Assembly (NCBI RefSeq): GCF_030295765.1
Contig: NZ_AP027292.1
Coordinates: forward strand, 2,790,001 to 2,854,000
Source: Neptuniibacter halophilus
Lineage (GTDB): Bacteria > Pseudomonadota > Gammaproteobacteria > Pseudomonadales > Balneatricaceae
DNA length: 64,000 nucleotides
Direction: 5' to 3'
In this document: positions 34,105 to 54,242 of the stretch, one piece after another
Numbering within the stretch: position 1 is the first letter of the stretch
Layout: each line of letters opens with the position of its first letter
Position numbers and translations under genes: made by a program
Notes under the pieces: model-generated
The model's database searches: none
Told to the model about the DNA's origin: nothing
What the model saw: only the letters and a program-made list of their open reading frames with translations

Positions 34105-34401
34105 CCGTTTCAGTTACACGTCTGCACCCCGGCTTCTGTATCATTGGAGCCGGAAGATTCCCCCGCACAGATTCATCGCGCTCGTCTGCTCTCATTTTTT
34201 ATATAAATCAGCCGCACGCTTTTCTGCTTTGGTGTTCAGCGACCCCAGACCTGATCAGACGTCAGATATTCATATAGATTTTGCCTATATTACAAATAAA
34301 AACTATCGAATTGTTCGAGATATTGGCCGCGTATATAAAGTCCTTACTGACCTTCTGGATCAGCTTACATCCAGCCATCTTAACAATGTGAGAGTTCAAC
34401 G
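34105..34401. other. 297-bp region between pdxJ and phnA
   Basis: Noncoding; it contains the phnA promoter and the two-part LysR-type operator listed separately. I saw no tandem CTGTCAT-like PhoB box. Confidence 0.5.
34274..34338 (+). promoter_or_regulatory. phnA promoter with two-part LysR-type operator
   Basis: Element A, ATAGATTTTGCCTAT (34274-34288), is followed after 12 nt by element B, AACTATCGAATTGT (34301-34314). The end of B doubles as a -35 element (TTGTTC), and ATATAA (34333-34338) follows at 16 nt. The same A-12-B layout occurs upstream of the MFS gene, phnS and the oxidoreductase. LysR proteins typically bind a distal recognition site and a second site near -35, as seen here. 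Confidence 0.72.
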
Positions 34402-35652
34402 ATGACCGAACAAAAAAAGACTATCAGTGTTAACGGACGTACCTACAAATGGCCACAGTGTCCTGTCGTTGCCGTGTGTGTAGACGGTTCACAGCCTGAG
34501 TATATCGAAGAGGCGATTAAAGCCGGTGTCATGCCCTGGACTGCCAAAGTCGTGGCTGAGCAGGGCAGTGACCTGCGTGCGGATTGTGTGGTACCGAGCT
34601 TCACCAACCCGAACAACATCTCCATTGTGACCGGCGTGCCACCGCGTGTTCACGGTATCTGCGGTAACTTCTACTACGACCGCGAAAACGACAAAGAGGT
34701 GATGATGAATGAACCCTCTCTGCTGCGTACCGACACCATCTTCAAAGCGTTTCAGGATGCCGGTGCCAAAATCGCAATTGTCACGGCAAAAGACAAACTG
34801 CGCCGCCTGCTGGGTAACGGCCTGACCTACGGAAAAGAGGGTGCGATCTGCTTCTCTTCCGAAAAAGCGGATCAGGTGACCTACGAAGAACACGGCATCG
34901 AAGGCGTACTGGATATGGTTGGCATGGAAGTGCCTTCGGTTTACAGCGGCGAGCTGTCTGAGTTTATCTTCGCGGCCGGTGTGAAACTGATGGAGCGTGA
35001 GCGTCCGGACATCATGTACCTGTCGACCACCGACTACATTCAGCACAAGTTTGCACCGGGCTCTGAAGGGGCTAATAAGTTCTACGCCATGATGGATAAA
35101 TACTGGGCACAGTTGGATGCACTGGGGGCGATTGTCGCTCTGACTGCCGACCACGGTATGAACGCCAAACACCACAACGATGGCACGCCGGACGTGATCT
35201 TCCTGCAGAGCCTGCTGGATGAGAAATTCGGTGCCGGTAACACCCGCGTAATCCTGCCGATTACCGACCCTTACGTAGTTCACCACGGCGCGCTGGGCTC
35301 CTTCGCGACCATCTATCTGGATGAAGCGATGAAAGGCCCAGTGCTGGATTACCTGACTACGGTTCCTGGTCTTGAGGAAGTACTGACTAACGCGCAGGCC
35401 TGCGACAAGTTTGGTCTGGCACCGGATCGCACCGGCGACATCATTGTTGTCTCTGATCAGCAGAAAGTGCTGGGAACGACCGAAGAGCGCCATGACCTGT
35501 CTGGTCTGGAAGTGCCTCTGCGCTCCCACGGTGGCATCACCGAGCAGTGCGTACCGCTGATCGTCAGCCAGCCTGTAGGTGGGGTTGATCCGGCCCGTCG
35601 TCTGCGCAATTTCGATATCTACGACATCGCGCTCAACCACACCGCCGCGTAA
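34402..35652 (+). CDS. phnA: Phosphonoacetate hydrolase
   Basis: The 416-residue protein of the alkaline phosphatase superfamily cleaves the C-P bond of phosphonoacetate to acetate and phosphate using two zinc ions. Visible motifs are the nucleophile region [52 protein letters not shown] and the distal [11 protein letters not shown]. Length and motifs match characterised PhnA. It is the first gene of phnA-phnY-phnW; phnY starts 22 nt after its stop. Control by the LysR-type operator upstream is likely. Confidence 0.94.
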
Positions 35653-35674
35653 TCGCCTGAACGGGAGACGAAGC

Positions 35675-37126
35675 ATGAATATGCCTGAAAATGCCCTGCA
35701 GCAGCGCCATGAGCTGATGCGTATTGCCGGCAAAAAGGTTGATGGTGCCACCGGTAAACGGATCGAAGTGATCTACCCTTACACCGGTCAGGTGATCGGT
35801 ACAGTGCCCCGCGCCAGCAAAGAACAGGCGGCGGAAGCATTTAAGATTGCTGCGGAGTACGAACCCACGCTGACGCGCTATGAGCGTCAGCAGATTCTCA
35901 GCAAAACCGCCGCGCTGATCAATGAAAGACGTGAACAACTGTCCGAGCTGATCACGCTGGAAACCGGTCTGTCGAAGAAGGACTCTCTGTATGAGTGTGG
36001 TCGTGCCTTTGACGTTTACACCCTGGCCGCGGCGATGTGTCTGCATGACGACGGAGAAGTTTTCTCCTGCGACCTGACCCCGCACGGTCAGAAGCGCAAG
36101 ATCTTCACCCAGCGTCATCCGCTGCGGGCGATCTCAGCGATTACCCCGTTCAACCACCCGTTGAACATGGTCTCGCACAAGATCGCACCGGCGATTGCCA
36201 CCAACAACTGCGTGGTGTGTAAGCCGACCGAGCTGACCCCGCTGACCGCACTGGCGCTGGCTGACATCCTCTATGAGGCCGGTCTGCCACCGGAGATGCT
36301 GTCGATGATCACCGGCCTGCCGGAGGATCTGGGGGATGAGATGATCACCAACGATCATATCGATCTGGTGACCTTTACCGGCAGCGTCCGGGTGGGCAAA
36401 TACATCGCCAACACCTGCGGTTACCGGCGCAAAATTCTCGAGCTGGGGGGCAATGCTCCGCTGATCGTTATGGAAGATGCGGATCTGGAACGGGCGGCCA
36501 CCCTCGCGGTAACCGGCGCGACTAAAAACTCCGGTCAGCGCTGTACCGCCGTGAAGCGAATCCTCTGTGTCGAATCCGTGGCCGATGAGTTTGCCGATCT
36601 GGTCGCCAGCAAAGCCCGCGAGATTCGCTACGGCGATCCGATGGACCCGGAAACCGACCTCGGTACGGTGATCCACGAAGAGGCGGCGAAGCAGTTCCAG
36701 ACCCGGGTGGAAGATGCGATCTCGAAAGGCGCAAAACTGCTCTACGGCAACGAGCGCAAGGGCGCGCTGTATTCGCCAACCGTGCTCGATCATGTGCCTT
36801 TTGATTGCGAACTGGTACGTGAGGAGACCTTCGGGCCGCCGATTCCGATCATCCGGGTGAAGGATATCAATGACGCGATCCGGGTATCTAACTCGACCGC
36901 CTTTGGTCTCTCCTCCGGTATCTGTACCTATCGGATGGATTACATCACCCGTTTTATCAACGAGCTGCAGACCGGCACGGTGAATATCTGGGAAGTACCG
37001 GGCTACCGGATCGAGATGTCCCCGTTCGGCGGCATCAAAGATTCCGGCCTGGGTGATAAAGAGGGCGTGATCGAAGCGATGAAGGGTTACACCTACGTGA
37101 AAACCTTCTCACTGCCCTGGCAGTAG
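35675..37126 (+). CDS. phnY: Phosphonoacetaldehyde dehydrogenase
   Basis: The 483-residue aldehyde dehydrogenase oxidises phosphonoacetaldehyde to phosphonoacetate with NAD+. It has the fold's [30 protein letters not shown], the base Glu in [11 protein letters not shown] and the nucleophilic Cys in [11 protein letters not shown]. The frame is open to 35579, overlapping phnA. The ATG at 35675, 8 nt after GGGAG, is the better start. Its place between phnA and phnW completes the three-step route. Confidence 0.93.
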
Positions 37127-37145
37127 TCGCGCTATCGCAACCCAC

Positions 37146-37165
37146 CGGCGGGGGTAACCCCGCCG
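37146..37165 (+). promoter_or_regulatory. GNRA-type hairpin between phnY and phnW
   Basis: CGGCGGGG-GTAA-CCCCGCCG is a perfect 8-bp GC stem with a GUAA tetraloop, 20 nt after phnY. No T tract follows. It may stabilise the phnAY message or partly reduce read-through into phnW, 155 nt further on. Confidence 0.55.
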
Positions 37166-37320
37166 ACATTCCAACACCCGGCAGAGCGCCAGAGGCGAAC
37201 GCCGGAACCAGAACAACAGAATCGGTACTTTATTAGTGGGCAGAGCAGCCCGGTACCGGACCCAAGACAGCGCGTGCGAATTTTTGGCCTGACGGGCGCA
37301 TGCAAACCAGGAGTAAAGTC

Positions 37321-38466
37321 ATGACAACAACAATTACACTGCCTGAAAACCCATACCTTCTGTTAACCCCCGGTCCACTGAGCACCTCGCACAGCGTCAA
37401 GGCGGCGATGCTCAAAGACTGGTGCACCTGGGACGATGACTACAACAACATCGTTCAGGATGTACGTCAGCAACTGGTCAGACTGGCGACGCCATCTGAA
37501 GGCTACACCTCCATCCTGATGCAGGGCAGCGGCACGGCCAGCGTTGAATCCGTCATCGGCTCAGTAATCCCTGAAACGGGCAAACTGGCGGTACTGACCA
37601 ACGGTGTTTACGGTAATCGTATCGTCGAGATTGCTGAATACCTGAAGATTCCGGTCGTCACCGTCGACAGTGGCGAGCTGGGGGCTTCCGACCTGACCGC
37701 GCTGTCGGCCAAACTGGAATCCGACCCGGCGATTACCCACGTTGCCGTGGTTCACTGCGAAACCACCACCGGCATGCTCAACCCCATTGAAGCGGTCAGC
37801 AAGGTGGTTAAAGCGCACAATAAAGTCTTTATCGTTGATGCCATGAGCAGCTTCGCCGGTGTAGAGATGGATATGGCCGCACTGGATATCGACTACCTGA
37901 TCAGCAGCGCCAACAAATGTATTCAGGGTGTGCCGGGCTTTGGTTTTGTGATCGCTAAACGCAGCCGTATGGAAGAGATTAAAGGCTTTGCCCGCTCGTT
38001 GAGCCTCGACCTTTATGACCAGTGGCACTGCATGGAAGCGAACAACGGCAAATGGCGTTTCACCTCGCCAACTCACGTAGTACGTGCCTTTGCGCAGGCC
38101 CTGACCGAGTTGCAGGAGGAGGGCGGTGTTGCCGCACGTGCAGAGCGTTACCGTATTAACCAGCGCACGCTGGTGGCCGGTATGCGCGAGCTGGGCTTTG
38201 AAACCCTGCTGACCGATGCCAATCAGTCACCGATTATCACCTCCTTCTACAGCCCGGATGATGCGAAATACAACTTTAAACAGTTCTATGCCCTGTTGAA
38301 GAGCAAAGGTTTCGTGATCTATCCGGGTAAGGTCTCCAAAGCAGACTGCTTCCGTATCGGTAATATCGGTGAGGTCTATCCGCAGGATATGCAGGCACTG
38401 GTGAAAGCGATCGGCGAGTCGATGTACTGGACAGACGAAACTGTAAACAGCGAAGCGGTAGCCTGA
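37321..38466 (+). CDS. phnW: 2-aminoethylphosphonate:pyruvate aminotransferase
   Basis: The 381-residue fold-type I PLP enzyme converts 2-aminoethylphosphonate and pyruvate to phosphonoacetaldehyde and alanine. Family features are [57 protein letters not shown] and the Schiff-base Lys in [15 protein letters not shown]. The start is the ATG at 37321, preceded by AGGAG. It supplies the substrate of PhnY. The gap of 194 bp to phnY is larger than usual and contains a tight hairpin. Confidence 0.95.
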
Positions 38467-38472
38467 TGGCCG

Positions 38473-38510
38473 GGGCAGGCCGGTAACCAACCCGGTCTGC
38501 CCGACGTTTT
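38473..38510 (+). terminator. Terminator after phnW
   Basis: GGGCAGGCCGG (38473-38483) pairs with CCGGTCTGCCC (38492-38502) over 11 positions with one G-T pair, followed by GACGTTTT. It ends the phnAYW unit just after the phnW stop. Confidence 0.72.
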
Positions 38511-38534
38511 GCACAGCGTGATTCAGGAGCCACC

Positions 38535-38732
38535 ATGTACCACATAACCTGTCCCAGTTGCGGCCGTTTAACCACCCGAAGCAGTTGCCCGGAATGGTGG
38601 AATCAGAATGTTCGTGCCCGTTGCACCGCCAGGCTCAGCAGCGGTCCGGGTTATCAGAAAGGCTGTGGCTACGAGCAGGCCAGCCTGCAGGAACGAAAGC
38701 AGGCCGACCGCTTTATTAACAGCGCCCGTTAG
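38535..38732 (+). CDS. Small cysteine-containing protein, possible zinc ribbon
   Basis: A 65-residue frame starts at an ATG 6 nt after AGGAG. It has CPSCG near the N-terminus and isolated cysteines further on (CP, CT, GCGYEQ). The layout loosely resembles Ogr/Delta-type zinc fingers, but the second Cys pair is not clean. A strong ribosome site argues for translation; the preceding terminator argues against simple phnW co-transcription. No function assigned. Confidence 0.4.
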   Translation: MYHITCPSCGRLTTRSSCPEWWNQNVRARCTARLSSGPGYQKGCGYEQASLQERKQADRFINSAR

Positions 38733-38861
38733 CCGGTGTAGCGAAAATGAGAGCCCGCCGCCTGATCACCGATCTGGCTGGCACTTTTCTACAATTGCTG
38801 CTGCATCGTTACCGGAACGCCTGAATAGCCCGACTGATAAAAAAACGCAGGACCAACTGCT

Positions 38862-39717: not shown

Positions 39718-39736
39718 AAAGGTATGTTTTTGGTGT

Positions 39737-42065: not shown

Positions 42066-43418
42066 TTAAGCTATAGCCGCTTCAGGCTGGGTTTGTTTCT
42101 CGCCCCGGTCGTCGTTTTTGTCATTAGAGCCGGGTGTCAGGTTCCAGAATGGCAGCAGGAGCAGGCCGGCAATAAAGGTCGCCATGGCAAAGCCCATGAA
42201 TACGGTTTCAGAGTCGAAGTAACCGGGCAGCAGACCGCCAAGTACCGCACCCACCGAACCACAGCCATTGACAAAACCGGTCGCGGTGCCGGCACCTTTA
42301 CGGGTACCGAAGTCAACGGCGGCAGAGCCGGAGAGCATGGAGTCAGGGCCATACAGGGTCAGGCCGATCAGAAACAGCATGCCAACCACCATATAGACAT
42401 TGCCGCTGTGAACCACCGGTATAAAGCCGGCGAGGACTACGGTCAGAATCAGCAGGCTGAGGGCACAGACCGGCATACGCTTGGCCTTAAACATCTTGTC
42501 GGAGGCAAAACCGAGAATAATCGGGCCAAACAGGCCGGCAAACTCAAAGGCCGCCGGAATGATCACTGCTTCTGCCTTAGAGATACCGGTCATCTCTTTG
42601 TAGACGATGTACGGGCCCCAGAGCAGAATGGCATATCGGGCAGGTTTCAGCAGGAAGTAGAGCGCACCCAGCAGCAGAACCACTTTGTTTTTCAGTACCG
42701 CCTTACTCTCTTTCCAGCCATGGCCTTCGCCGCGTTCGGCGATCTCATCATCGAGACTTGCCAGCAGGGTCTCTTTCTCCTCACCGTGATATTGCTCGAT
42801 CGGTTCCAGACCGACACAGCCCGGTGTATTGCGTTGCAGGATAAAGAACAGCAGCCAGACTACGGCGACCACCACGGCGGTGGCGAAGAAAGCGATGCGC
42901 CAGTCGTTGAACACATCGTAGGCCATCCAGCCGGCAAACGGCGAAGCGACCAGACCACCAAACGCATAGTTAGTGCTCCACATGCCCATAACACGCCCAC
43001 GTTCGTTGCGGGAGAAAAAGTTACCGACGTTTTTACACAGGGCCGACCAGCCGGTGGACTGGCCCAGTCCCTGTATAAAGATAAAGATCATAAAGATGGC
43101 CGCGCCATGGAACAGGCCCATGGATACGGCTGCGACAACCGAGGCCAGCAGACCACTGAGAATCATCACCCGGGTACCGAATCGGTCAGCAAACATCCCC
43201 CACATAAACTGGCCGATCGCGTATGCGATCAGATAGGCCGCATCCATATTCGCCATCATCTCGGTGGTGATGGAGAAGTTCGGGTCCTCTTCCATACCCA
43301 CTTTAGCCACAGCAAAAGCCTTGCGGGTGAAATAGAAAGACGCGTATGCGAGCCAGGTGATGCCGAATATCTGCCAGCGCCAGCGCTCATAACGCGGATT
43401 CTTGATCATAGTTGTCAT
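42066..43418 (-). CDS. MFS transporter of the organophosphate:phosphate antiporter family
   Basis: The 450-residue protein has 12 predicted membrane segments and OPA-family (GlpT/UhpT/PgtP) features: FYFTRKAFAVAKVGM, GQFMWGMFADRFGTR, STGWSALCKNVGNFFSRNER and GPDSMLSGSAAVDFGTRKGA. Relatives import phosphorylated sugars or glycerol-3-phosphate in exchange for phosphate. Its promoter has the same two-part operator as phnA and phnS, so I infer that it carries a phosphonate, for instance phosphonoacetate or aminoethylphosphonate. The substrate is not shown by sequence. Confidence 0.85.
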   Translation of the reverse strand: MTTMIKNPRYERWRWQIFGITWLAYASFYFTRKAFAVAKVGMEEDPNFSITTEMMANMDAAYLIAYAIGQFMWGMFADRFGTRVMILSGLLASVVAAVSMGLFHGAAIFMIFIFIQGLGQSTGWSALCKNVGNFFSRNERGRVMGMWSTNYAFGGLVASPFAGWMAYDVFNDWRIAFFATAVVVAVVWLLFFILQRNTPGCVGLEPIEQYHGEEKETLLASLDDEIAERGEGHGWKESKAVLKNKVVLLLGALYFLLKPARYAILLWGPYIVYKEMTGISKAEAVIIPAAFEFAGLFGPIILGFASDKMFKAKRMPVCALSLLILTVVLAGFIPVVHSGNVYMVVGMLFLIGLTLYGPDSMLSGSAAVDFGTRKGAGTATGFVNGCGSVGAVLGGLLPGYFDSETVFMGFAMATFIAGLLLLPFWNLTPGSNDKNDDRGEKQTQPEAAIA

Positions 43419-43492: not shown

Positions 43493-43533
43493 ACAATTCG
43501 ATAGTTCTTATCTTAAATATAGGTTGAGTCTAT
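43493..43533 (-). promoter_or_regulatory. MFS gene operator, two-part LysR type
   Basis: On the minus strand, element A is ATAGACTCAACCTAT (43533-43519) and element B is AACTATCGAATTGT (43506-43493), 12 nt apart. Element B is identical over all 14 bases to that of phnA. B ends 74 bp before the start codon and overlaps a potential -35. Confidence 0.72.
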
Positions 43534-43854: not shown

Positions 43855-43919
43855 ATAGTCTCAACCTATGTTTGGTATTTGATATATCGATTTGTTGCGG
43901 GTTTGGGGCGGGTATATAA
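43855..43919 (+). promoter_or_regulatory. phnS promoter with two-part LysR-type operator
   Basis: Element A is ATAGTCTCAACCTAT (43855-43869) and element B is ATATATCGATTTGT (43882-43895), again 12 nt apart. TTGTTG at the end of B is a possible -35, and ATATAA (43914-43919) follows at 16 nt, exactly as at phnA. Confidence 0.72.
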
Positions 43920-44008
43920 CGAATGGGCACACCTGAAAAGTTCTTATCCATCCAGCCTGTGAAGACTGGTTCTCTCTTTGACCTAATAACGACAAAAAGG
44001 GGCGCAAG

Positions 44009-45052
44009 ATGAAGAAACAAGGTTTTGTCCGATCAGTAAAAATCACCGTCCAGACACTGACCCTCAGTGCACTCTCGATGGCGGTACTCAATGCCGGTGC
44101 GGCGACTGAACTCACCGTGTATACCGGCCTTGAGGCCAATGATCTGAAAAAGTATGCCGAGCGGTTTAATGAAGATTACCCGGATATCAAGCTCAACTGG
44201 GTACGTGACTCGACCGGTGTTATTACGGCGAAGTTGCTGGCGGAGAAGGAAAACCCACGGGCGGATGTGGTCTGGGGGCTGGCGGGTACCAGCCTGTTGC
44301 TGCTGGATAAAGAAGGGATGCTGGAGCCTTATGCTCCGGTGGGTGTCGAGAAGCTGAGTAAGGGCTTCCGGGATGTGAATAACCCGCCCACCTGGACCGG
44401 CATGAACGCCTGGGTTGCCTCCATCTGTTTTAATACCTACGAAGCCGAAAAATATAACCTGCCTAAACCCACCTCCTGGAAAGACCTTCACAATCCGATT
44501 TATCAGGGCCATCTGGTGATGCCGAATCCGGGCTCCTCCGGCACCGGTTATCTGGATGTTTCCAGTTGGTTGCAGATGTTCGGCACTGAAGGGGGCTGGG
44601 CCTATATGGATGGCCTGCACAAGAATATCAGCCGCTATACCCACTCCGGTTCCAAACCCTGCAAGCTCGCTGCCGCAGGTGAGATTCCGATCGGCATCTC
44701 CTATGCCTATCGTGCCGCCAAGCTGAAAAACAAAGGTGCACCCCTGGATGTGATTGTACCGGCAGAAGGCGTCGGCTGGGAGCTGGAGGCGGGCGGCATC
44801 ATCAAAGGCACGCCGAAGATGGACGCGGCGAAAAAACTGATGGACTGGTCGGTCACCCATAAAGCCAACACCCTCTACAACGAGAGCTTTGCGGTGGTTG
44901 CGATGCCCGGTGTCGCGAAACCGGTGAAGAACTTCCCGGCTGAGATTACACAGCGGATGATCGATAACGATCTGGCCTGGGCGGCTGCAAACCGGGCAGA
45001 GATTCTGAAGGAGTGGAACAACCGGTACAACTCAAAATCGGACCCGAAATAA
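44009..45052 (+). CDS. phnS: 2-aminoethylphosphonate ABC transporter, periplasmic binding protein
   Basis: The 347-residue protein has a signal peptide ending near NAGAA. The mature part is a family 1 binding protein (TELTVYTGLEANDLKKYAER, RADVVWGLAGTSLLLLDKEG, NPGSSGTGYLDVSSWLQMFG), matching the type associated with 2-aminoethylphosphonate uptake. It delivers substrate to the permease encoded two genes downstream. The gene order binding protein, ATPase, permease and the shared operator with phnA support this. Confidence 0.88.
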   Translation: MKKQGFVRSVKITVQTLTLSALSMAVLNAGAATELTVYTGLEANDLKKYAERFNEDYPDIKLNWVRDSTGVITAKLLAEKENPRADVVWGLAGTSLLLLDKEGMLEPYAPVGVEKLSKGFRDVNNPPTWTGMNAWVASICFNTYEAEKYNLPKPTSWKDLHNPIYQGHLVMPNPGSSGTGYLDVSSWLQMFGTEGGWAYMDGLHKNISRYTHSGSKPCKLAAAGEIPIGISYAYRAAKLKNKGAPLDVIVPAEGVGWELEAGGIIKGTPKMDAAKKLMDWSVTHKANTLYNESFAVVAMPGVAKPVKNFPAEITQRMIDNDLAWAAANRAEILKEWNNRYNSKSDPK

Positions 45053-45126: not shown

Positions 45127-46278
45127 ATGGGCGATTTAGCGAAGAAACGCTTTGGCCATGAGTCATTGCACCGGGTGGATGGCAAGGGGCGTAAGGTTAC
45201 TGAAGTCAGACCGCAGAAGAAGTATCTGGAAATAAAAGACGTTATCAAAGAGTACGGCAATTTCACCGCGTTGAAGGGGATCTCTCTGGATATTAACGAG
45301 GGCGAATTTATCAGTTTCCTCGGTCCTTCCGGGTGCGGTAAAACCACGTTGCTGCGGGCAATCGCCGGGCTGGATATTCAGACCTCCGGTACCGTGCTGC
45401 AGGGCGGTGAGGATATCTCGGCGCTGCCGCCGAATATGCGTGACTTCGGCATAGTGTTTCAGTCCTATGCGCTGTTCCCCAATCTGACGGTGGCGCAGAA
45501 CGTGGCGTATGGTCTGGAGAGCCGCAAAACCGAAAAAGATGAGATTGCACGGATTATCTCCGGCCTGCTGGTTACGGTGGGTCTGCCGGGATCGCAGCAT
45601 AAATACCCTTCCCAGCTTTCTGGTGGTCAGCAGCAGCGTGTGGCACTGGCCCGTGCTCTGGCAACCTCGCCGGGCTTACTGCTGCTGGATGAGCCGCTCT
45701 CGGCACTGGATGCTCAGGTACGCATTCACCTGCGTAAGGAGATCAAAGCGCTGCAGCACAAGCTGGGGGTAACCACCATTATGGTGACCCATGATCAGGA
45801 GGAGGCGATGACCATGGCCGACCGGATTGTGGTGATGAATCACGGGGTGATCGAGCAGGTGGGTACGCCCCAGGAGATCTACCAGCGTCCGGCCAGTGCC
45901 TTTGTGGCGAACTTTGTCGGCACCATCAATCTGATGCCGTGCTTTGCCAGCAGCGAGGACTCGATCGATATGATCGGTGTGCAGCTTAAGTGTCAGTGTG
46001 ATGCCGGGCTGGTGGGGCAGAAAGCGGTGGTGGCGATCCGGCCGGAAGATGTGGTGATCCGTAATGTAGCAGACGGGGACACCAACAGTCTGGATGTGGT
46101 GATTGATGAGCTTGAGTTCCTCGGCTCGTTTGCCCGCGCGACCCTGAGCCATGGGCGCGGTATGTCACTGATCGCCGAGTTCTCGATGAACGTGATGCGG
46201 GATTTCAGCATTCAGGTGGGCAAGGCGGTTAAGATCGCGCTGCCGGTTGAGCATCTGCGCTTATTCCCGGAACAGTAA
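45127..46278 (+). CDS. phnT: 2-aminoethylphosphonate ABC transporter, ATP-binding protein
   Basis: The 383-residue ATPase has Walker A (LGPSGCGKTTLLRAIAG), the signature LSGGQQQRVALARAL, Walker B (LLLLDEPLSALDAQ) and a C-terminal TOBE-like regulatory domain. It energises uptake together with PhnS and PhnU. About 30 residues precede the usual ATPase start, which is longer than average but has no in-frame alternative ATG before the conserved domain. Confidence 0.9.
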   Translation: MGDLAKKRFGHESLHRVDGKGRKVTEVRPQKKYLEIKDVIKEYGNFTALKGISLDINEGEFISFLGPSGCGKTTLLRAIAGLDIQTSGTVLQGGEDISALPPNMRDFGIVFQSYALFPNLTVAQNVAYGLESRKTEKDEIARIISGLLVTVGLPGSQHKYPSQLSGGQQQRVALARALATSPGLLLLDEPLSALDAQVRIHLRKEIKALQHKLGVTTIMVTHDQEEAMTMADRIVVMNHGVIEQVGTPQEIYQRPASAFVANFVGTINLMPCFASSEDSIDMIGVQLKCQCDAGLVGQKAVVAIRPEDVVIRNVADGDTNSLDVVIDELEFLGSFARATLSHGRGMSLIAEFSMNVMRDFSIQVGKAVKIALPVEHLRLFPEQ

Positions 46279-46305: not shown

Positions 46306-48024
46306 ATGCAATCGGTAATTCCAGGCGCTGCTGCGCCGATCGTCCGGGTTAAACCCAAACTCAGTGCTGATGACTGGACCATGCGGGTTCTGATCGTAAT
46401 CGCCGTGCTTGGCCTGACCGTGGCCATTGTGCTGCCACTCTACAGCATGCTGATCAAGAGTGTTCAGAGTGCCTTAGGTGAGTTTGTCGGTTTTGCTAAC
46501 TTTGTCGCTTACTTTGAGAGCCCGACCCTGTTCAGGTCGATCTGGCACTCGCTGTTTGTCGCCGCAACCGCGACCCTGATCGCACTGACGCTGGCGTTTC
46601 TCTATGCTTATGGCCTGACGCGAACCTGCATGCCGCTGAAGGGCGTGTTCAAAATCGTTGCGCTGATTCCGCTGCTGGCACCTTCACTGCTGCCGGCAAT
46701 CAGCCTGGTATATATCTTCGGCAGTCAGGGCGTCGCCAAAGAGCTGCTGATGGGGCACAGTATCTACGGCCCGATCGGGATCATTATGGGGCTGGTGATC
46801 TGGGTATTTCCTCCCTCGTTGATGATTCTGCGCACCTCCCTGCAGATGACCGATGCCCGGTTGTATGAGGCGGCGGATGTACTTCGCTCTAACCCGCTGC
46901 GTACCTTCTTTGTGGTGACCCTGCCGGGGATTAAGTACGGCCTGATCAGCGCCTTCTTTGTGGTCTTTACCCTGACGGTAACGGATTTCGGTGTAGCCAA
47001 GGTAATTGGCGGACAGTACAGCGTACTGGCAACCGACCTGTTCAAGCAGGTGATTGGCCAGCAGAACTTCCAGATGGGCGCGGTGGTTGGTCTGGTGCTG
47101 CTGATTCCGGCGGTGGTGGCGTTTGCCGTGGATCGTATCGTACAGCGTAAACAGGTCTCAATGCTGAATGCACGCTCAGTGCCATATACCCCGAAGCCCA
47201 ATCCGCTGAAGGACAGTCTGTTCTTTATCTACTGCTGTCTGGTCGCGGCGGTGCTGATCGGTATGCTGGGGATGGCGGCCTATGCATCCTTTGTAACATT
47301 CTGGCCTTATGATCAGACGTTGTCGTTGAACAACTATCAGTTTGACCAGATGGATGGCGGTGGCTGGGAGGCGTTTTTCAACTCCCTGCGTATGGCGCTG
47401 TATACCGCACTGTTCGGCACGATCTTTATCTTTATCACCGCATATGTGAATGAAAAGTGTCGTGGTTTCGAACGGGTGCGCAGCCTGATTCAGATGCTGA
47501 CCCTGCTGCCGATGGCGGTGCCGGGTATGGTGCTGGGCCTTTCCTACATCTTCTTCTTTAACGATCCGGGTAATCCGCTCAACGCCCTCTACGGCGGGAT
47601 GGCGATTATGGTGGTTTGTACCGTGGTGCACTTTTACACCGTGAGTCATATCACGGCGGTGACCGCGCTGAAGCAGATGGATCCTGAGTATGAATCGGTG
47701 GGCGCATCCCTTAAGGTGCCTGTGTATAAAACCTTCTTCCGGGTGACTCTGCCGGTGTGTCTGCCAGCGGTACTGGATATCTCGACCTACCTGTTTACCA
47801 CCGCAATGACCACGGTATCGGCCGTAATATTCCTCTACTCCACCGATACCAAGCTGGCTGCGGTGGCGGTGCTGAACATGGAAGGGGCCGGCGATATTGC
47901 TCCGGCAGCGGCGATGGCGATGGTGATTGTGGCAACCTCCACAACGGTGCGTCTGTTGCACTGGTTCCTGACCCGCAGGCTCAGGGCGCGGGTGTTGAGC
48001 TGGCGCCGGGGAGCAGCGTCGTGA
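46306..48024 (+). CDS. phnU: 2-aminoethylphosphonate ABC transporter, fused permease
   Basis: The 572-residue protein carries two FbpB/ThiP-like permease halves in one chain, each with about six membrane segments. An EAA-type loop appears in each half (YEAADVLRSNPLRTFFVVTL near 185 and YESVGASLKVPVYKTFFRVT near 465). One polypeptide therefore supplies the complete membrane channel, as in PhnU2-type proteins. It follows phnT by 27 bp. Confidence 0.88.
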   Translation: MQSVIPGAAAPIVRVKPKLSADDWTMRVLIVIAVLGLTVAIVLPLYSMLIKSVQSALGEFVGFANFVAYFESPTLFRSIWHSLFVAATATLIALTLAFLYAYGLTRTCMPLKGVFKIVALIPLLAPSLLPAISLVYIFGSQGVAKELLMGHSIYGPIGIIMGLVIWVFPPSLMILRTSLQMTDARLYEAADVLRSNPLRTFFVVTLPGIKYGLISAFFVVFTLTVTDFGVAKVIGGQYSVLATDLFKQVIGQQNFQMGAVVGLVLLIPAVVAFAVDRIVQRKQVSMLNARSVPYTPKPNPLKDSLFFIYCCLVAAVLIGMLGMAAYASFVTFWPYDQTLSLNNYQFDQMDGGGWEAFFNSLRMALYTALFGTIFIFITAYVNEKCRGFERVRSLIQMLTLLPMAVPGMVLGLSYIFFFNDPGNPLNALYGGMAIMVVCTVVHFYTVSHITAVTALKQMDPEYESVGASLKVPVYKTFFRVTLPVCLPAVLDISTYLFTTAMTTVSAVIFLYSTDTKLAAVAVLNMEGAGDIAPAAAMAMVIVATSTTVRLLHWFLTRRLRARVLSWRRGAAS

Positions 48025-48108: not shown

Positions 48109-48981
48109 ATGAAACATAAGCAACTCAAGGCGTTTGATGCCGTGGCCCGTGAGGGGAGCTTCTCCCGTGCGGCGCAGCGTCTTTGCGTAACCCAGCCCGC
48201 GCTGACGGTACAGGTAAAAAGTCTGGAGAAAGATTACGGGGTACAAATGTTTATCCGCTCGGCCCAGGGGGTGCGACTGACCCGTGAGGGAGAGCGTTTG
48301 TTCCGGCTGACCCGGCAGCTTTTCTCGGTGGAGGAGGAGATCAGGGATGTACTGGACAGCAACTACCAGCAACTCACCGGTGATCTGAAACTGGGTGTGG
48401 ATAACCCGCTGGTGGCGATGCCGCTGGTAAAAGCCTACCGCGAGCGGTACCCCGGTGTGCGCCTTGATCTGGTGGCGGGTAACAGTCAGGGGGTCTGGCT
48501 GGATCTGATCGAACAGCGGGTGGATATGGCGATGGTTACCAATCCGGATGATGATCCCCGGCTGAAGTTTGTGCCACTGTACGAAACCCGCCTGCTGATT
48601 GCCGTGTCCCGGAATCACCTCTGGGCCGGGCGGCAGAGTCTGGGATTGGCTGAGTTGCAGGATCAACCGCTGATCAGCCGCGAAGACGGGTCTAACACCC
48701 AGCGTTTTATTGAGGAGGTGCTGGCAGAGCAGGGCGGATGCTTTGATCGCAGTCTGAGAGTGGGCAGCCGCGAGATGATGAAAGAAGCGGTAGCGGCGGG
48801 CCTCGGTGTTGGTTTTGTGATGTCCGGCGAGTGCGGTGATGATCCAAGGCTGCATCTGCTTGAGGTGGAGGGGGTCAGCCGCCGCAGTATCGACACCCTG
48901 ATCTATCAGCACAGTCAGGTGCAGCGCCGGGTGGTGAGTGGCTTTCTTGAACTGGTTAAGGAAACGCTTCATCTGGTATAA
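48109..48981 (+). CDS. LysR-family regulator (aminoethylphosphonate-associated type), copy 1
   Basis: The 290-residue protein has an N-terminal HTH (LKAFDAVAREGSFSRAAQRL, CVTQPALTVQVKSLEKDYG) and a LysR effector domain. It is recognisably related to the regulator at 50630, including the SREMMKEAVAAGLGVGFV segment, and resembles the LysR group tied to aminoethylphosphonate catabolism. It lies directly downstream of phnSTU but after a terminator. Whether it or its paralogue reads the shared operator is not decided by sequence. Confidence 0.87.
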   Translation: MKHKQLKAFDAVAREGSFSRAAQRLCVTQPALTVQVKSLEKDYGVQMFIRSAQGVRLTREGERLFRLTRQLFSVEEEIRDVLDSNYQQLTGDLKLGVDNPLVAMPLVKAYRERYPGVRLDLVAGNSQGVWLDLIEQRVDMAMVTNPDDDPRLKFVPLYETRLLIAVSRNHLWAGRQSLGLAELQDQPLISREDGSNTQRFIEEVLAEQGGCFDRSLRVGSREMMKEAVAAGLGVGFVMSGECGDDPRLHLLEVEGVSRRSIDTLIYQHSQVQRRVVSGFLELVKETLHLV

Positions 48982-49021
48982 GGCTGACACGGCGGGCCAT
49001 AACGACCCGCATCGGCAGGAG

Positions 49022-50419
49022 TCAGATCAGGCCCAGTTCCTGTTCCACTTCGGTGAGCGATTCATCGATGATCGCCAGGGCGCGATCCATCTCTTCACGT
49101 CCGGCGATCAGCGGTGGTGTAAAGGTCAGGACATTGCCCATAGTGGTTTTAAAACTCAGCCCCCGGCTGAGGGCTTTATACAGCACCCGGTCGGCCGCTT
49201 CAGTGGCGGGTTCGCGGCTCTCCCGATCCATCACCAGCTCGGCCCCGAACAACATGCCCCGGCCGCGGACATCGCCGATCAGAGGGTGATGTCTCTGTAA
49301 TGCCTCCAGCCCGGTCAGCGCCTGCTGGCCGACTCTGGCGGCATTCTCGACCAGCCCTTCCTCTTCAATAATCTGAATCGTGGTCAGGGCGGCGCGGCTG
49401 GTTACCGGGTTTTTCTCATGGGTGTAGTGCCCGATGGCGAAATGCCCGGCTACATTCAGCTCCGGCTGACAGACCACCGCCGAGATCGGCAGCATGCCAC
49501 CCCCAAGGGCTTTGCCCAGCACCAGAATATCCGGCACCACTTCATCATGGTTGCAGGAGAACATCTGCCCGGTTTTACCCAGCCCGGTGGGGATCTCATC
49601 AAAAATCAGCAGCGCGCCGTGCTGATTACAGAGTTCGCGAACCCGCTTCCAGAACCCCGGAGCGGCAATGTAAGGCACGGCACGGCTGGGCTCGGCGATT
49701 ACCGCACCGATATCACCCTCTTTTTCCAGCAGGTAACGGATCTGGTTCAGGCACAGCTCGTCACTGCCTTCCGTCACACCCCAGGCGTTACGGTAGTCAC
49801 CAAAGGGCGGCACGTGCAGCGCACCGGCCAGCGGGGCATGGCGCTCGTTTTGTGACGTGCGCTGTTACTTGTTCCCCCGTGGCCGCTCGGTGCCGCGGGC
49901 AACGGCGCCGAGCCCGGGACATGAAGCCGGGAAGGAGAGGGTTTTAAAGCGACCGGTCGCGATACGGGCGATCTTCATGGCGATCTCCACCGCATCGGAG
50001 CCGCCGGTGGCGAACAGTACCCGGCTCAGGTTGCCGGGAGTGATATCGGCCAGCTTTTCTGCCAGTTCTACGGCGACATCACAGGCATAACGGCGCGGGG
50101 CAAACGGCAGGTCATGCATCTGCCGGGTGACCGCTTCGATCAGGCGCGGGTGGCCATGGCCGATGTGGTGGACGTTATTACCGTGGAAATCCATATAGCG
50201 TTTGCCGGCGGTATCTTCAATCCACAAGCCTTCCACTTTGCGCACGCCCATCAGACAGGGGGTGGATACGGACTGATGCAGAAAACTGTCGGCATCGCGT
50301 TGCAGCAACTGCCGAGAAGCCGGGTCCAGATGTTGCTGCTGCCAGTGCTGACGGTTGCTGGAGTGGTTAACATCCCCTTCGGCTCCGGAAGGGACTGTGT
50401 TGTAGGCACTTTTAAGCAT
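49022..50419 (-). pseudogene. pbfA: PbfA-like PLP enzyme with in-frame stop, probably inactive
   Basis: The reading frame from ATG 50419 meets a TAA at 49867-49865 (codon 185) and continues in the same frame to 49022, where the downstream part starts again as VPPFGDYRNAWGVTEG. Both parts match class III aminotransferases in aminoethylphosphonate clusters: FHGNNVHHIGHGHPRLIEAV before the stop, LIFDEIPTGLGKTGQMF and the PLP Lys in LVLGKALGGGMLP after it. PbfA releases ammonia from 1-hydroxy-2-aminoethylphosphonate. About 38 codons around the stop look scrambled, and the expected aromatic-His-Gly PLP-contact motif is missing. This could be true decay or an assembly error. Confidence 0.72.
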
Positions 50420-50629
50420 GGTTATTTCTCAATCCAGTGGGTTTTTCGGCATCTTAGGTGGTGTTGGTTACCTCCGGCCAATCACTTAAATTATTTTTTT
50501 TCAGGCAAAAATTTATAGCCCTGCGAGGGCCTGTAAATAAAGGCCTGAAACACTTTATTCAGGACTTTATCCGGGCGTGGGTTATCCAGTAAGATGCTAT
50601 ATATAAAACCAATAAAATAGGTTTAATCT
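50420..50629. other. 210-bp divergent region between pbfA and lysR copy 2
   Basis: Noncoding. It carries AT-rich promoter-like sequence and, at the lysR end, the operator described at 50591-50631. Confidence 0.5.
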
Positions 50630-50631
50630 AT
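50591..50631 (-). promoter_or_regulatory. pbfA/lysR operator, weak two-part LysR type
   Basis: On the minus strand element A is ATAGATTAAACCTAT (50631-50617), a strong match. At 12 nt distance lies ATATATAGCATCTT (50604-50591), only partly like element B. Element A overlaps the first two bases of the ATG of the lysR gene at 50630, which suggests autoregulation as well as control of pbfA. Confidence 0.55.
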
Positions 50632-51514
50632 GAATCATGCGCAGATCCGGGCCTTTCATGCGGTGGCCAGCCAGGGTAGTTACACCAAGGCTGCACAGAC
50701 CCTGCATGTCAGCCAGCCTACCCTTTCCGACCATGTAAAAGCACTCGAAGAACGTTACGGGGTGAAGCTGTTCAAGCGTCAGGGCAGGGGTGTGGCACTG
50801 ACCAGTCTGGGGCATGCGTTGCTGGAGATCACCCGGCGTAAGTTCAGTCTCGAAGCCGAAGCGGAGCAGTTGCTCTCCATGGCTAAGGGGATGATGAGCG
50901 GTAAACTGCGGGTGGCTGCGGATGGCCCCTATCTGGTGGTACCGCTACTGGGCGCATTCTGCCGCCGCTATCCGGGGATTAATATCTCGATGAACTTCGG
51001 TAACACCGAACGGGTGTTGCAGGACCTGCTGGAGATGCGTGCAGATATCGCGGTGCTGCCTGACTTTAATAACGATGAGCGGATGTTTGCGCTGGCTTAC
51101 CGTACTACAAAGCTGGTGGTGATTGTGAACCGTGAGCATGAGTGGAGCCGGCGGCGCAGTATCAAGCTCAGCGAGCTGTCTGAGCAGAGGCTGGTCTCGC
51201 GAGAGCAGGGCTCGGTGACCCGTTCTCAGTTTGAGCAGGCATTGCGGCAGAAGCGTGTCACGCCGGCCTCAGTGCTGGAGATCGGCAGCCGTGAGGGGGT
51301 GCGTGAAGCGGTGGCCGCGGGGTTGGGGATAGGCGTTATCGCGGAATCCGAACTCGGCAACGATGATCGGCTGGTACCGCTGGACGTAAAAGATGCAGAA
51401 CTGAACGTAACCGAGTATCTGACCTGTCTTAAGGAGGCTCGTCCCATCCCGGTGGTGCAGGCTTTTTTTGAGCTTTTTGGTAACCCTCAGGGGCCGATGC
51501 TGACTGAGCTTTGA
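50630..51514 (+). CDS. LysR-family regulator (aminoethylphosphonate-associated type), copy 2
   Basis: The 294-residue protein has the HTH (IRAFHAVASQGSYTKAAQTL, HVSQPTLSDHVKALEERYGV) and an effector domain with SREGVREAVAAGLGIGVIAE. It is divergent from pbfA, the classical LysR layout. A full operator element A covers its own start codon, making it the first candidate for the regulator of the whole phosphonate set. Its HTH resembles the LysR group linked to aminoethylphosphonate use. Confidence 0.88.
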   Translation: MNHAQIRAFHAVASQGSYTKAAQTLHVSQPTLSDHVKALEERYGVKLFKRQGRGVALTSLGHALLEITRRKFSLEAEAEQLLSMAKGMMSGKLRVAADGPYLVVPLLGAFCRRYPGINISMNFGNTERVLQDLLEMRADIAVLPDFNNDERMFALAYRTTKLVVIVNREHEWSRRRSIKLSELSEQRLVSREQGSVTRSQFEQALRQKRVTPASVLEIGSREGVREAVAAGLGIGVIAESELGNDDRLVPLDVKDAELNVTEYLTCLKEARPIPVVQAFFELFGNPQGPMLTEL

Positions 51515-51610
51515 GGTTGGTTTTGCGACAGGTGCAGTGTTATCCGTGATTTGTGCTTTACGCTGCGTATATGCATGCGCATAATCAGAGGTGTAGTTCA
51601 GGAGGTTATG

Positions 51611-51856
51611 ATGGAACCTATTTTTGATGTTAATGCACCTAAAAAAGCCACAAATCTGAGTATTAACAGTGACTTGCTGATCAAGTGCCGTGCAATGAAA
51701 GTCAATCTGTCAGCGACTCTGGAGAAGGCATTGGCCGAAAAGCTGGCTCAGACGGAAGCTGAAAAATGGGCTCAAGAGAACAAACATGCGATCAAAGCTT
51801 ATAACGAGTTTGTAGAAGAGCATGGTTGCTTCGGAGATGAATTCAGGGAGTTTTAA
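51611..51856 (+). CDS. ccdA: CcdA-family antitoxin
   Basis: GGAGG at 51601-51605 is followed by ATG at 51608 and 51611; the second has the better spacing (81 residues). The product has the CcdA ribbon-helix-helix start (KKATNLSINSDLLIKCRAMK, VNLSATLEKALAEKL) and a C-terminal toxin-binding tail (WAQENKHAIKAYNEFVEEHG). It should neutralise CcdB and repress the operon. The stop and the ccdB start overlap as TAATG. Confidence 0.9.
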   Translation: MEPIFDVNAPKKATNLSINSDLLIKCRAMKVNLSATLEKALAEKLAQTEAEKWAQENKHAIKAYNEFVEEHGCFGDEFREF

Positions 51857-52173
51857 TGGCTCAGTTTGATGTGTACTCAAATCCCCGCCGTACAACTCAG
51901 AAGATTTTTCCCTACCTTGTTGATATTCAGAATCCTGTTATTGAGCATCTGGCCACGCGGATTGTGATCCCCTTGGGCATGCTCGATCGATTTAAACATC
52001 AGACCCTAAAAGGCTTAGCCCCTGAAATCGATTACAAAGGCGTTAAGTATATTCTGCTGGTACCTCAGTTAGCCTCTATTCCTGCAAAGAGTTTGAAAAA
52101 TCCCATAGGTTCATTGAGCCATCTGAGAGATGAAATTATTGCTTCTCTCGACTTTGCTATTACCGGTATCTGA
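51856..52173 (+). CDS. ccdB: CcdB-family toxin
   Basis: The 105-residue protein begins MAQFDVYSNPRRTTQKIFPY and contains LVDIQNPVIEHLATRIVIPL and a C-terminal SLSHLRDEIIASLDFAITGI ending in Gly-Ile. CcdB poisons DNA gyrase, and the C-terminal residues make the key contact. It is translationally coupled to ccdA. Chromosomal ccdAB pairs are common in gammaproteobacteria. Confidence 0.9.
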   Translation: MAQFDVYSNPRRTTQKIFPYLVDIQNPVIEHLATRIVIPLGMLDRFKHQTLKGLAPEIDYKGVKYILLVPQLASIPAKSLKNPIGSLSHLRDEIIASLDFAITGI

Positions 52174-52194
52174 CGTGATGACTTTAGCGTAAAT

Positions 52195-52219
52195 CCCCGG
52201 TCGGTTATCCGGACCGGGG
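52195..52219. terminator. Convergent hairpin between ccdB and the cupin gene
   Basis: CCCCGGT (52195-52201) pairs with ACCGGGG (52213-52219), with inner CGG/CCG pairing. It lies between the convergent genes; no long T tract. Confidence 0.55.
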
Positions 52220-52239
52220 GGGAGTTTGGCAGGCGGGTT

Positions 52240-52596
52240 TTATTCGTAGATCACATACTGCTTTCTTACTTTGCCGATAGATTCCCAGACACCGTCAAAA
52301 CCCGGTGCGATCACAAACGCATCTCCCGCTTTGAACAGGCTGCTGTTGCCGGTATTGTCGGTCAGCCGGACCTCACCTTCCAGCAGGTGGACGAACTCCA
52401 CTTTGTCCGGGCTCTGCTTTATCTTGCGGTAGGGCTCACACTCCCAGAAACCGACACTCAGCTTGCTGTCGGTACTGGTAAAGACCGGCCAGGTCGTGGT
52501 TTCCGGGTTACCTTCCAGCATCACCTCTGCGGAGGCTGCACTGCGGATACCCGTGGACAGGGGAATGCTGTCAAAGGCGACGACGTGACTTACCAT
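52240..52596 (-). CDS. Cupin protein (DUF861/EutQ-like)
   Basis: The 118-residue single-domain beta-barrel has LSVGFWECEPYRKIKQSPDK, EFVHLLEGEVRLTDNTGN and FKAGDAFVIAPGFDGVWESI, the pattern of the small DUF861 cupins found beside amine oxidases. It follows the aminophosphonate oxidoreductase by 45 bp and is surely in its operon. A role in handling an unstable product or binding a ligand is plausible but unproven. Confidence 0.8.
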   Translation of the reverse strand: MVSHVVAFDSIPLSTGIRSAASAEVMLEGNPETTTWPVFTSTDSKLSVGFWECEPYRKIKQSPDKVEFVHLLEGEVRLTDNTGNSSLFKAGDAFVIAPGFDGVWESIGKVRKQYVIYE

Positions 52597-52641
52597 GGTT
52601 TAGTTCCTTTGTTATTTCTTGAATAAGGGGAGCAGCAGGGA

Positions 52642-54048
52642 CTAGCCTTTATCGGATTTGCCCGCCGCATTGGCAAATTTGGCCAGTTGCTTATCGATCC
52701 ACCAGGGTTTATTACCCGCATCTTCAGCGTTTTCCTTACGCCGGATTGCGTTGCGCACGGTCATGGCACCGAGCCAGCGAATCGGCTCAGGCGGGAAGGT
52801 GGCCAGCGGGCCTTTGACCAGACCGCTGCGGGTCCACTCGTTATCCAGCCCCAGCACCAGCGAAGCGAGAATTTCTCCGCCCATATAGCTCTGGCAGACA
52901 CCATTGCCGGAGTAGCCCAGACCGTAAAAGATATTGCTCTGGTTATTCAGCCGGCCAAAAAACGGAAAGCCGGTGGCCGAGCGGTCCGAAGGGCCGGTCC
53001 AGGTGCGCTCGATCGGAGTGTCTTTCAGGTAGGGGAAAAATTTGTTCAGTGCACCCTGAAGCTGGGTCTGATAGCGACTTGGCTGGTCAAACGCCGGATA
53101 AACCTGATTGTTAAAGGCAAACATATTGCCGCCTTTACCCAGCATCAGGCGGCCGTCCGGTGTGGTGCGGTAGTAGTGGACAAAGATACGTGAATCGACC
53201 ACGGCTTTACCATCGTCCAGCCCGGCGGCGGCCAGCTTTTCTGGCACCGGTTCAGTGATCGCCATATCTGAGGAGACCAGTACCACCGTGTTGTTGAACT
53301 GGGGGTACTTCTTCGGTGTCCAGGCGTTGATGGCGAGCACCACCTGGCGTGCTTTGACCTCGCCATGCGGGGTTTTAACCCGTGCCGGATGGCCCTCTTC
53401 AATGGAATCCATCGCGGTGTTTTCGTAGATCCGCACGCCCATCGCTTCGGCAACCCGCTTCATGCCACGTACCAGCAGGCCGGGTTGCAGGCTTCCGGCC
53501 GCCGGGGAGTAGTAGCCATCAATATGCTGCTGTGACCCGGCTGCCTGCTTAACCTGCTCCGGTGACCAGTGCATCCAACTGTTGAGGCGGCGTTCAGTCA
53601 GGGCCTTGATGGTGGGTTCCATGCCGCCCAGTTGGGCTTCGTTGGTTGAGGTATAGAGTGTGCCGTCGAGCCGGACCTGAGCATCGATATTGTGTTCGCG
53701 GCAGAAGTTACGGATCTGGTAGGGCGCTTCTTCGGAGGCGCGCACCAGTCGGCAGGCTTCCTCCTCGCCAAACAGACGTCGCAGGGAGAAATACTTAGTG
53801 GACCAGGTCAGCATGCAACCGCCGTTACGGCCAGAGGCGCCACTGCCACACAACCCCTTGTCGATAATGACGATCTCCATTTCAGGTTTCTGCTGTTTTA
53901 GTTTTATGGCAGTCCATAATCCGGTGTAGCCACCACCGATAATGCAGAGGTCAGCAGAGCAATCGCCGGACAGAGGCTGCGGCGTGCTGTCCGCTTCCTG
54001 TGACAGCGCTTCGGAATACCAGAAAGGTTGGTAATAGGGTTTTGACAC
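52642..54048 (-). CDS. FAD-dependent aminophosphonate oxidoreductase (PbfD-like)
   Basis: The 468-residue protein of the DAO/glycine oxidase fold has the dinucleotide site DLCIIGGGYTGLWTAIKLKQ, GASGRNGGCMLTW, and a C-terminal FYGLGYSGNGVCQSYMGGEI that closes the FAD site. It resembles the oxidoreductases repeatedly found in aminoethylphosphonate clusters, reported to oxidise N-methylated aminoethylphosphonate to phosphonoacetaldehyde. That would feed PhnY and PhnA. Its promoter has the two-part LysR-type operator. A general amine oxidase role (PuuB-like) is the main alternative. Confidence 0.82.
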   Translation of the reverse strand: MSKPYYQPFWYSEALSQEADSTPQPLSGDCSADLCIIGGGYTGLWTAIKLKQQKPEMEIVIIDKGLCGSGASGRNGGCMLTWSTKYFSLRRLFGEEEACRLVRASEEAPYQIRNFCREHNIDAQVRLDGTLYTSTNEAQLGGMEPTIKALTERRLNSWMHWSPEQVKQAAGSQQHIDGYYSPAAGSLQPGLLVRGMKRVAEAMGVRIYENTAMDSIEEGHPARVKTPHGEVKARQVVLAINAWTPKKYPQFNNTVVLVSSDMAITEPVPEKLAAAGLDDGKAVVDSRIFVHYYRTTPDGRLMLGKGGNMFAFNNQVYPAFDQPSRYQTQLQGALNKFFPYLKDTPIERTWTGPSDRSATGFPFFGRLNNQSNIFYGLGYSGNGVCQSYMGGEILASLVLGLDNEWTRSGLVKGPLATFPPEPIRWLGAMTVRNAIRRKENAEDAGNKPWWIDKQLAKFANAAGKSDKG

Positions 54049-54201
54049 GTGGTTGTCTCCCTCTATGGGGTCAGCCCCACAGATCTGAATTTATAAGCGG
54101 GCAGGGCCGCCGGTTTTTCCGTTATCCAGAGGTTGTTTACTGCGCTGTAACTGCCGCAACCTCTCCATAAGCAGGTACAGTAACGGTCTGTTATTATTCG
54201 A

Positions 54202-54242
54202 ACAAATCGATAGATTCTATTTTTTATATCGGTTTGGTCTAT
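54202..54242 (-). promoter_or_regulatory. Oxidoreductase operator, two-part LysR type
   Basis: On the minus strand element A is ATAGACCAAACCGAT (54242-54228) and element B is ATCTATCGATTTGT (54215-54202), 12 nt apart. B leads into TTGTTC as a possible -35. The distance to the start codon is 153 bp, the second longest in the set after the weak pbfA copy. Confidence 0.68.

Follow-up and report, generated by a model that had tools for sequence, protein, structure and literature searches.

In Pseudomonas putida BIRD-1, phnWX is fully induced by 2-aminoethylphosphonate only when the LysR-type regulator AepR is present, and phosphonoacetaldehyde has been suggested as its inducer (PMC9311074). LysR-type AepR genes have also been reported in many 2-aminoethylphosphonate gene clusters (PMC8316502, PMC10574752). 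In the literature that we searched, with most subscription papers outside the search, we found no mapped AepR operator: neither 'operator' nor 'binding site' occurs in the available main text of PMC9311074, nor 'operator' in that of PMC8316502. Here, we analyze a phosphonate island within a stretch of 64,000 nucleotides from Neptuniibacter halophilus (NZ_AP027292.1, positions 2,790,001 to 2,854,000; hereafter the window, whose own numbering we use). A 41-bp element repeated in this island is very probably the operator of an AepR-like LysR-type regulator, LysR2 (lysR2, 50630-51514, plus strand). It would define a phosphonate regulon comprising phnA-phnY-phnW, the ATP-binding cassette (ABC) transporter genes phnSTU, a major facilitator superfamily (MFS) gene, a gene for a PbfD-like oxidoreductase and lysR2 itself, the latter through the first dyad of the element lying on its own start codon. 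Sequence comparison strongly supports a real, conserved LysR operator and regulon, with a conserved overlap between the operator and the start codon of the regulator.

Like the AepR genes of P. putida BIRD-1 and marine Alphaproteobacteria (PMC9311074, PMC8316502), lysR2 lies beside genes for 2-aminoethylphosphonate catabolism and transport, and its likeness to them is one of gene context and published descriptions, not of AepR sequences. The authors of the BIRD-1 study speculate that each AepR serves the adjacent operon only (PMC9311074), whereas lysR2 appears to serve four scattered promoters. PhnR from P. fluorescens 23F and PalR from Variovorax Pal2 are LysR-type, substrate-dependent activators of phosphonate hydrolase genes, PhnR serving phnA (PMC10574752); both are reported to be phylogenetically distinct from AepR (PMC8316502), and we set them against lysR2 by description only. 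Regarding the layout of the operator, the present one resembles that of BenM and CatM, in which Site 1 (ATAC-N7-GTAT, a T-N11-A motif) is accompanied by a degenerate Site 2 that overlaps the -35 in the published model of PbenA (PMC6628147). Most of our sites read ATMG-N7-CKAT instead of the BenM/CatM motif, so that the two are functional analogues only. The BenM/CatM tetramer is said to bind Sites 1 and 3 without effector, and Sites 1 and 2 with it (PMC6628147).

Two phased dyads at the promoters of the island

A preliminary description of this DNA had proposed that five promoter regions share a LysR-type element A, followed in four of them by an element B after exactly 12 nt. All five A-like elements are present, starting at 34274 (plus), 43533 (minus), 43855 (plus), 50631 (minus) and 54242 (minus). 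Four of them belong to full operators, located upstream of phnA, with phnY and phnW downstream on the same strand (34274-34314, plus); of the MFS gene (43493-43533, minus); of phnS2, followed on the same strand by phnT2, phnU2 and a second LysR-type gene, lysR1 (43855-43895, plus); and of the PbfD-like oxidoreductase gene (54202-54242, minus). In the proposed regulon, phnY and phnW would be transcribed with phnA, and phnT2 and phnU2 with phnS2. The fifth (50617-50631, minus) consists of A alone, placed on the lysR2 start codon, with no B towards pbfA. We located B at 34303 (plus), 43504 (minus), 43884 (plus) and 54213 (minus). Its distance from A is indeed fixed in the four sites, amounting to 14 nt when A is taken as a 15-mer and B as the 12-mer CTATCGAWTTGT; the figure of 12 nt came from including two more bases in B, the 14-mer AACTATCGAATTGT being two A's longer. 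This 14-mer is identical at phnA and at the MFS gene, as described.

Within the window, A has 15 matches at up to three mismatches against 4.28 expected, a number reached in none of 100 shuffles; several of these count a single dyad twice, once per strand, and some matches lie elsewhere than at the five promoters. B alone is not enriched, with 7 matches at up to two mismatches against 6.49 expected, and the rare feature is the combination of A and B, not B singly. Searching the complete genome (4,113,600 bases) with the combined 41-bp pattern at up to three mismatches gave four matches, namely the four operators of the window, and nothing at random positions. A second combined pattern gave the same four, while a reversed control pattern gave none. 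Both patterns derive from the four sites, so these counts show rarity rather than discovery, and weaker sites elsewhere would escape them, as the site at pbfA and lysR2 does. One could argue that the sites belong to a global regulator of phosphate or nitrogen starvation, given that regulation of this kind acts on phosphonate genes in other bacteria (PMC9311074). With only four copies in the genome at this stringency, all within the island, and with the site tied to the start codons of lysR2 in relatives (see below), we regard this as extremely improbable compared with a pathway-specific LysR regulator.

To describe the anatomy of the element, near-identical sites from the window and from related loci were thinned to 41, which we used for counts of complementarity, -10 hexamers and T-N11-A; base frequencies come from a set of 48 sites. 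Complementarity of the outer four base pairs of a 15-bp dyad peaks at centers 8, 19 and 30, with values of 0.89, 0.66 and 0.57, and does not exceed 0.45 elsewhere. A and B together thus form two T-N11-A dyads 22 bp apart, whose four half-sites follow each other in steps of 11 bp. Most sites have ATMG-N7-CKAT as dyad 1, while dyad 2 consists of AT at positions 23-24 and mostly CGAT at 34-37. The T-N11-A motif is found in 41 of 41 sites for dyad 1 and in 39 of 41 for dyad 2, counts that are partly circular, as are those of spacing and dyads, since the fixed-spacing matrix contains those bases. At phnA, dyad 1 occupies 34274-34288 (center 34281), and dyad 2 occupies 34296-34310 (center 34303).

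According to this anatomy, B is better read as a TTGT preceded by the distal half of the second, weaker dyad. B overlaps the predicted -35 with its TTGT (positions 38-41); its CGAT (34-37) lies outside the -35 hexamer and is part of dyad 2. An alternative is that A is the LysR2 site, with B being just a promoter element or bound by another protein, in which case there would be no single two-dyad operator. Some conservation of B would be expected for promoter reasons, because it ends in a -35-like TTGT, and its lack of enrichment on its own in the window points the same way. The bases of CGAT are, however, conserved outside the hexamer (20, 20, 20 and 17 of 20 sites; 39, 36, 48 and 45 of 48) and keep the 11-bp phase of A and of the near-invariant AT at 23-24. 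In addition, a single spacing recovers the site in most relatives of two bacterial classes, and the sole promoter of the window lacking B serves pbfA, a gene interrupted by a stop codon. We therefore consider a B independent of the LysR2 site unlikely and favor a two-dyad operator.

Dyad 2 (center 30) abuts the predicted -35 TTGT, the place expected for the second site of a LysR-type regulator. At phnA, this TTGT lies at 34311-34314 and the predicted -10, TATAAA, at 34334-34339; at phnS2, the predicted -10 is TATAAC at 43915-43920. An ATATAA at equal distance from these two -35 elements had been pointed out, and it does lie at the same place in both, 18 nt past TTGT or 16 nt past the hexamers TTGTTC and TTGTTG; reading the -10 as TATAAA and TATAAC gives a spacer of 17. 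Of the 41 sites, 11 have a -10-like hexamer (at least 4 of 6 bases) at a spacer of 17 from the hexamer at 38-43 and 8 at a spacer of 18, compared with 0 to 4 sites at each of the other offsets from 10 to 33. As more than half of the sites show no good -10 at spacers 17 or 18, the promoter assignment is firmest for phnA, the MFS gene and phnS2 of the window. If the predicted -10 elements are right, dyad 1 would be centered near -65 and dyad 2 near -43, and transcription of phnA and phnS2 would begin about 72 nt from the first base of A. A T-N11-A dyad with a weaker one abutting the predicted -35 is consistent with the proposed layout of recognition and activation sites.

We propose that a LysR2 tetramer would place one pair of DNA-binding domains on the strong dyad ATMG-N7-CKAT, near -65 of the predicted start, and the other pair on the weaker dyad at positions 23-37 (AT...CGAT), near -43 and next to the -35 TTGT. 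An inducer arising from the breakdown of 2-aminoethylphosphonate would then shift or relax the tetramer, allowing RNA polymerase to use a weak promoter, which at phnA would be TTGTTC, 17 bp and TATAAA. Bound over the start region of lysR2, the protein would also limit its own expression.

Beyond the 41 bp, an in-phase AT at 45-46 is frequent (36 and 35 of 48 sites), 22 bp past the AT at 23-24, and could be one more half-site, comparable to BenM Site 3. A third dyad of this kind was considered and left as an observation, the AT being present in none of the four window sites; BenM Site 3 has no convincing counterpart in the window.

The element on the start codons of lysR2 relatives

The copy of A at pbfA had been said to overlap the start codon of lysR2, and it does so: A covers 50617-50631 and the ATG 50630-50632, so that the start codon supplies, on the opposite strand, the AT at positions 1-2 of dyad 1. 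To follow this register in other genomes, we scanned 40 lysR2 relatives with a matrix built from the four window operators only, the lysR2/pbfA site being excluded. The relatives are 45-68% identical to lysR2 and belong to Gamma- and Alphaproteobacteria, comprising nine gammaproteobacterial loci, seven Kiloniella-type loci and 24 new ones. The latter come from a search of 385 genomes of the Kiloniella class at E up to 1e-75, which gave 26 LysR genes in 23 genomes, two of them from Kiloniella genomes already included. A site was counted as being at the start when its register fell within 3 nt of the lysR2 start codon, on the divergent strand. Of the 40 relatives, 30 have such a site as the best of 3354-5922 positions, 33 have it at rank 1 or 2, and 35 at rank 3 or better. 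A full site on the lysR2 start codon is present in all of the first 16 relatives, and two of the new ones (L100 and L104) have a strong full site 25 nt upstream of it. Hence, the expectation that orthologous promoters conserve the spacing between A and B is borne out, with the site as top match at the predicted place in most relatives of both classes; the matrix itself imposes this spacing, and other spacings would appear as misses, L114 being one such case.

No site was found at the starts of seven control LysR genes (the window's lysR1, its relative in G010, a third homolog from the same genome, G382, G167, G042 and G279), where the ranks were 36 to 792. G382 and G167 had passed the E-value limit and were placed with the controls, outside the 40, as was G042 (37%); a further candidate control, L093, was left unscored. 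Regarding additional matches to the family profile TIGR03339, G279 and G409 showed no site and G283 a weak one only (11.0 bits), G283 and G409 being scanned only with a second matrix. This second matrix was made from 23 sites, leaving out the weak MFS site of G012 and, from Kiloniella, one extra site and another three lysR2 sites.

The divergent neighbor of lysR2 changes among these genomes, being phnW in 12 of the first 16 relatives, phnA in the other four, all from one genus, and pbfA in the window. A phn gene lies inside the examined locus in 35 of the 40; the short stretches of L107, L115, L117, L118 and L120 show none, apart from a 24% match to PbfD in L118. Sites were also found at other promoters. 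In G012 and G027, from the same family as the source organism, sites before phnA score above the best of three shuffles of the same DNA, and G027 also has sites above its shuffles before phnS2 and the MFS gene. Further sites precede phnS2 in G456 and phnA in G320.

Gamma- and Alphaproteobacteria share the register on the start codon, even where protein identity falls to about 45%. The CC at positions 11-12 of the element places an AGG 8 nt before the lysR2 ATG, and half-site 2 (CCTAT) reads ATAGG on the coding strand, which could plausibly serve as a Shine-Dalgarno sequence. Promoters away from any start codon often have CC as well, indicating that it is not there solely for translation, and it varies in some Alphaproteobacteria. 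Self-limitation of lysR2 through the overlap seems likely. We would give even weight to a broader proposal, in which one short sequence would control activation of the divergent gene as well as repression and translation of the regulator itself, and the operator would travel with its lysR gene between phosphonate islands, capturing the neighboring catabolic gene, be it phnW, phnA or pbfA.

The window itself departs from this arrangement on the pbfA side. At the pbfA promoter, dyad 1 scores 20.8 bits and the remainder -4.0 and -2.1. A shifted or differently spaced B was looked for at gaps of 0 to 40 nt and not found, the best candidate reaching 4.3 bits compared with 16.0-19.3 at the other four promoters. 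The promoter has element A only, B having been lost or never present, and the gene is interrupted by one in-frame TAA. In the upstream open reading frame (ORF) of pbfA, 184 residues long, the profile match ends at residue 169, leaving 15 codons ahead of the TAA, and pbfA is probably a pseudogene or the product of an assembly fault. Either the operator half decayed together with the gene, or a rearrangement that placed pbfA beside lysR2 cut the operator.

The probable LysR regulator of the element

The preliminary description had named the LysR gene at 50630 as the regulator, and the comparative evidence supports this choice, in that the site keeps a fixed register on the starts of lysR2 relatives. 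The start-codon site is retained even when phnW or phnA is the divergent gene instead of pbfA, and nine gammaproteobacterial genomes that gave no lysR1 ortholog also carry it; both observations argue for LysR2. The alternative is that lysR1 (48109-48981, plus strand), which lies after phnSTU, reads these operators. It is inside the island and downstream of one of the operators, and its product is also TIGR03339-like (287.6 bits). We searched 18 genomes for lysR1 at E up to 1e-30. In the nine gammaproteobacterial genomes that have the site together with lysR2, lysR1 matches the lysR2 ortholog best (35-39%), the sole other match being a 30% LysR protein in G149; the absence of a separate lysR1 ortholog holds for this E-value limit and for genomes of which some are only 87-90% complete. 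Incompleteness could make us miss lysR1 in single genomes, hardly in all nine. Besides, the starts of lysR1-type genes (in the window, in G010 and in the third homolog) carry no site, and the loci L046 and L047 gave no match above their own shuffles. The recognition helix differs as well: it is QPTLS in 23 of the 25 listed site-bearing regulators, that of the window included (QPTIS in L098 and QPAVT in L105), versus QPALT in three lysR1-type proteins. L119, which lacks the site, has QPAIT, and L114 has QPTLS. The second LysR protein seems not to be needed, and we judge it very unlikely that lysR1 encodes the regulator.

Several observations weigh against LysR2 as the reader of a conserved operator, besides the partial circularity of the counts, the missing B at pbfA and the limits of the lysR1 search mentioned above. 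Kiloniella-type genomes hold further LysR genes that are 33-45% identical to lysR1, which speak for the alternative and do not decide the point. Among the 40 relatives, L115 and L117 have the start-codon site at ranks 1 and 2 with low scores (1.9 and 1.0), L113 has its site 166 nt upstream of the lysR2 start, L114, read by eye, keeps the layout with A and B one base closer together, and the matrix scan found no site at L119. The proteins from G382 and G167, 43% identical to LysR2, lack the start-codon site; the only candidate there, about 80 nt upstream, is weak (15.4 bits). At the other promoters, the MFS site of G012 is weak in the scan with the window matrix, scoring 13.7, with shuffles reaching up to 6.7 and an unrelated match of 11.7 in the same stretch. 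The gap before pbfD in G012 shows no site, and a site hidden at the joint of two sequence stretches there was considered and not found. The Kiloniella-type loci L036, L037, L040 and L041 show no site before phnS2. Finally, LysR2 scores 337.7 bits against TIGR03339, 3.4 under the curated cut-off of 341.1. For this reason, we call it TIGR03339-like or AepR-like, and not a formal member of the family. lysR1 falls below the same cut-off, and a TIGR03339 scan of 369 genomes of the class gave no protein above it.

With LysR2 as the probable regulator, the analysis yields an operator at base level, a named regulator, expected targets and a register rule; together these would allow substrate-induced phosphonate genes to be predicted in other genomes. 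Phosphate-moving transporters may be part of the response. In Kiloniella sp. EL199 (L035), a second full site at 20330 (minus), which the second matrix scores at 40.9 bits, is located 378 nt upstream of a gene at 18264-19952 (minus) with sodium/phosphate (Na+/Pi) cotransporter and PhoU domains, located beside phnS2. Together with the PgtP/GlpT-like MFS gene of the window, this site suggests that the handling of released phosphate belongs to the regulon.

Elsewhere, the source genome encodes a third TIGR03339-like LysR protein (G000:C1:54741-56560, in L047), 51% identical to lysR1. Its gene has another LysR gene as its neighbor, with an ABC ATPase gene about 3 kb away. No such operator lies at its start, and it may serve a second system.

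Genes of the phosphonate island

Gene identities are based on NCBIfam and Pfam matches, whereas the names PbfD and AepR are borrowed from the literature and are not labels given by the tools. On the plus strand, the island opens with phnA, for phosphonoacetate hydrolase (34402-35652; TIGR02335), phnY, for phosphonoacetaldehyde dehydrogenase (35579-37126; TIGR03250), and phnW, for 2-aminoethylphosphonate:pyruvate transaminase (37300-38466; TIGR02326). The true start of phnY is probably inside the annotated ORF, given that the profile match begins only at residue 43. The MFS transporter gene lies on the minus strand (42066-43418) and is related to PgtP and GlpT, with 210.2 bits against TIGR00881, under the cut-off of 407.75. 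It is followed on the plus strand by the genes for a phnS2-type substrate-binding protein (44009-45052; TIGR03261), a phnT2-type ATPase (45127-46278; TIGR03265) and a phnU2-type permease (46306-48024; TIGR03262), with lysR1 at the 3' side of phnU2. The interrupted pbfA, recognized by a family profile match, occupies 49022-50419 (minus), and the putative aminophosphonate oxidoreductase gene that we call PbfD-like occupies 52642-54048 (minus; TIGR03329).

The phn catabolism genes are thus linked to lysR2 in the window, the gene linkage by which the AepR group is described. LysR2 itself has an N-terminal HTH_1 domain (PF00126; 79.9 bits against a curated cut-off of 26.6) and a LysR substrate-binding domain (PF03466; 141.7 bits against 28). 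Its closest solved LysR structure by sequence is 5y2v (123.9 bits), which is of no help for the DNA site.

Directly upstream of the phnA promoter region, and on the same strand, lies pdxJ (33370-34104, plus), for pyridoxine phosphate synthesis. Between lysR2 and the oxidoreductase gene, the segment 51551-52173 (plus) holds a weakly CcdB-like gene (39.3 bits, with a cut-off of 147) preceded by a small ORF, and the two could form a toxin-antitoxin pair within the island.

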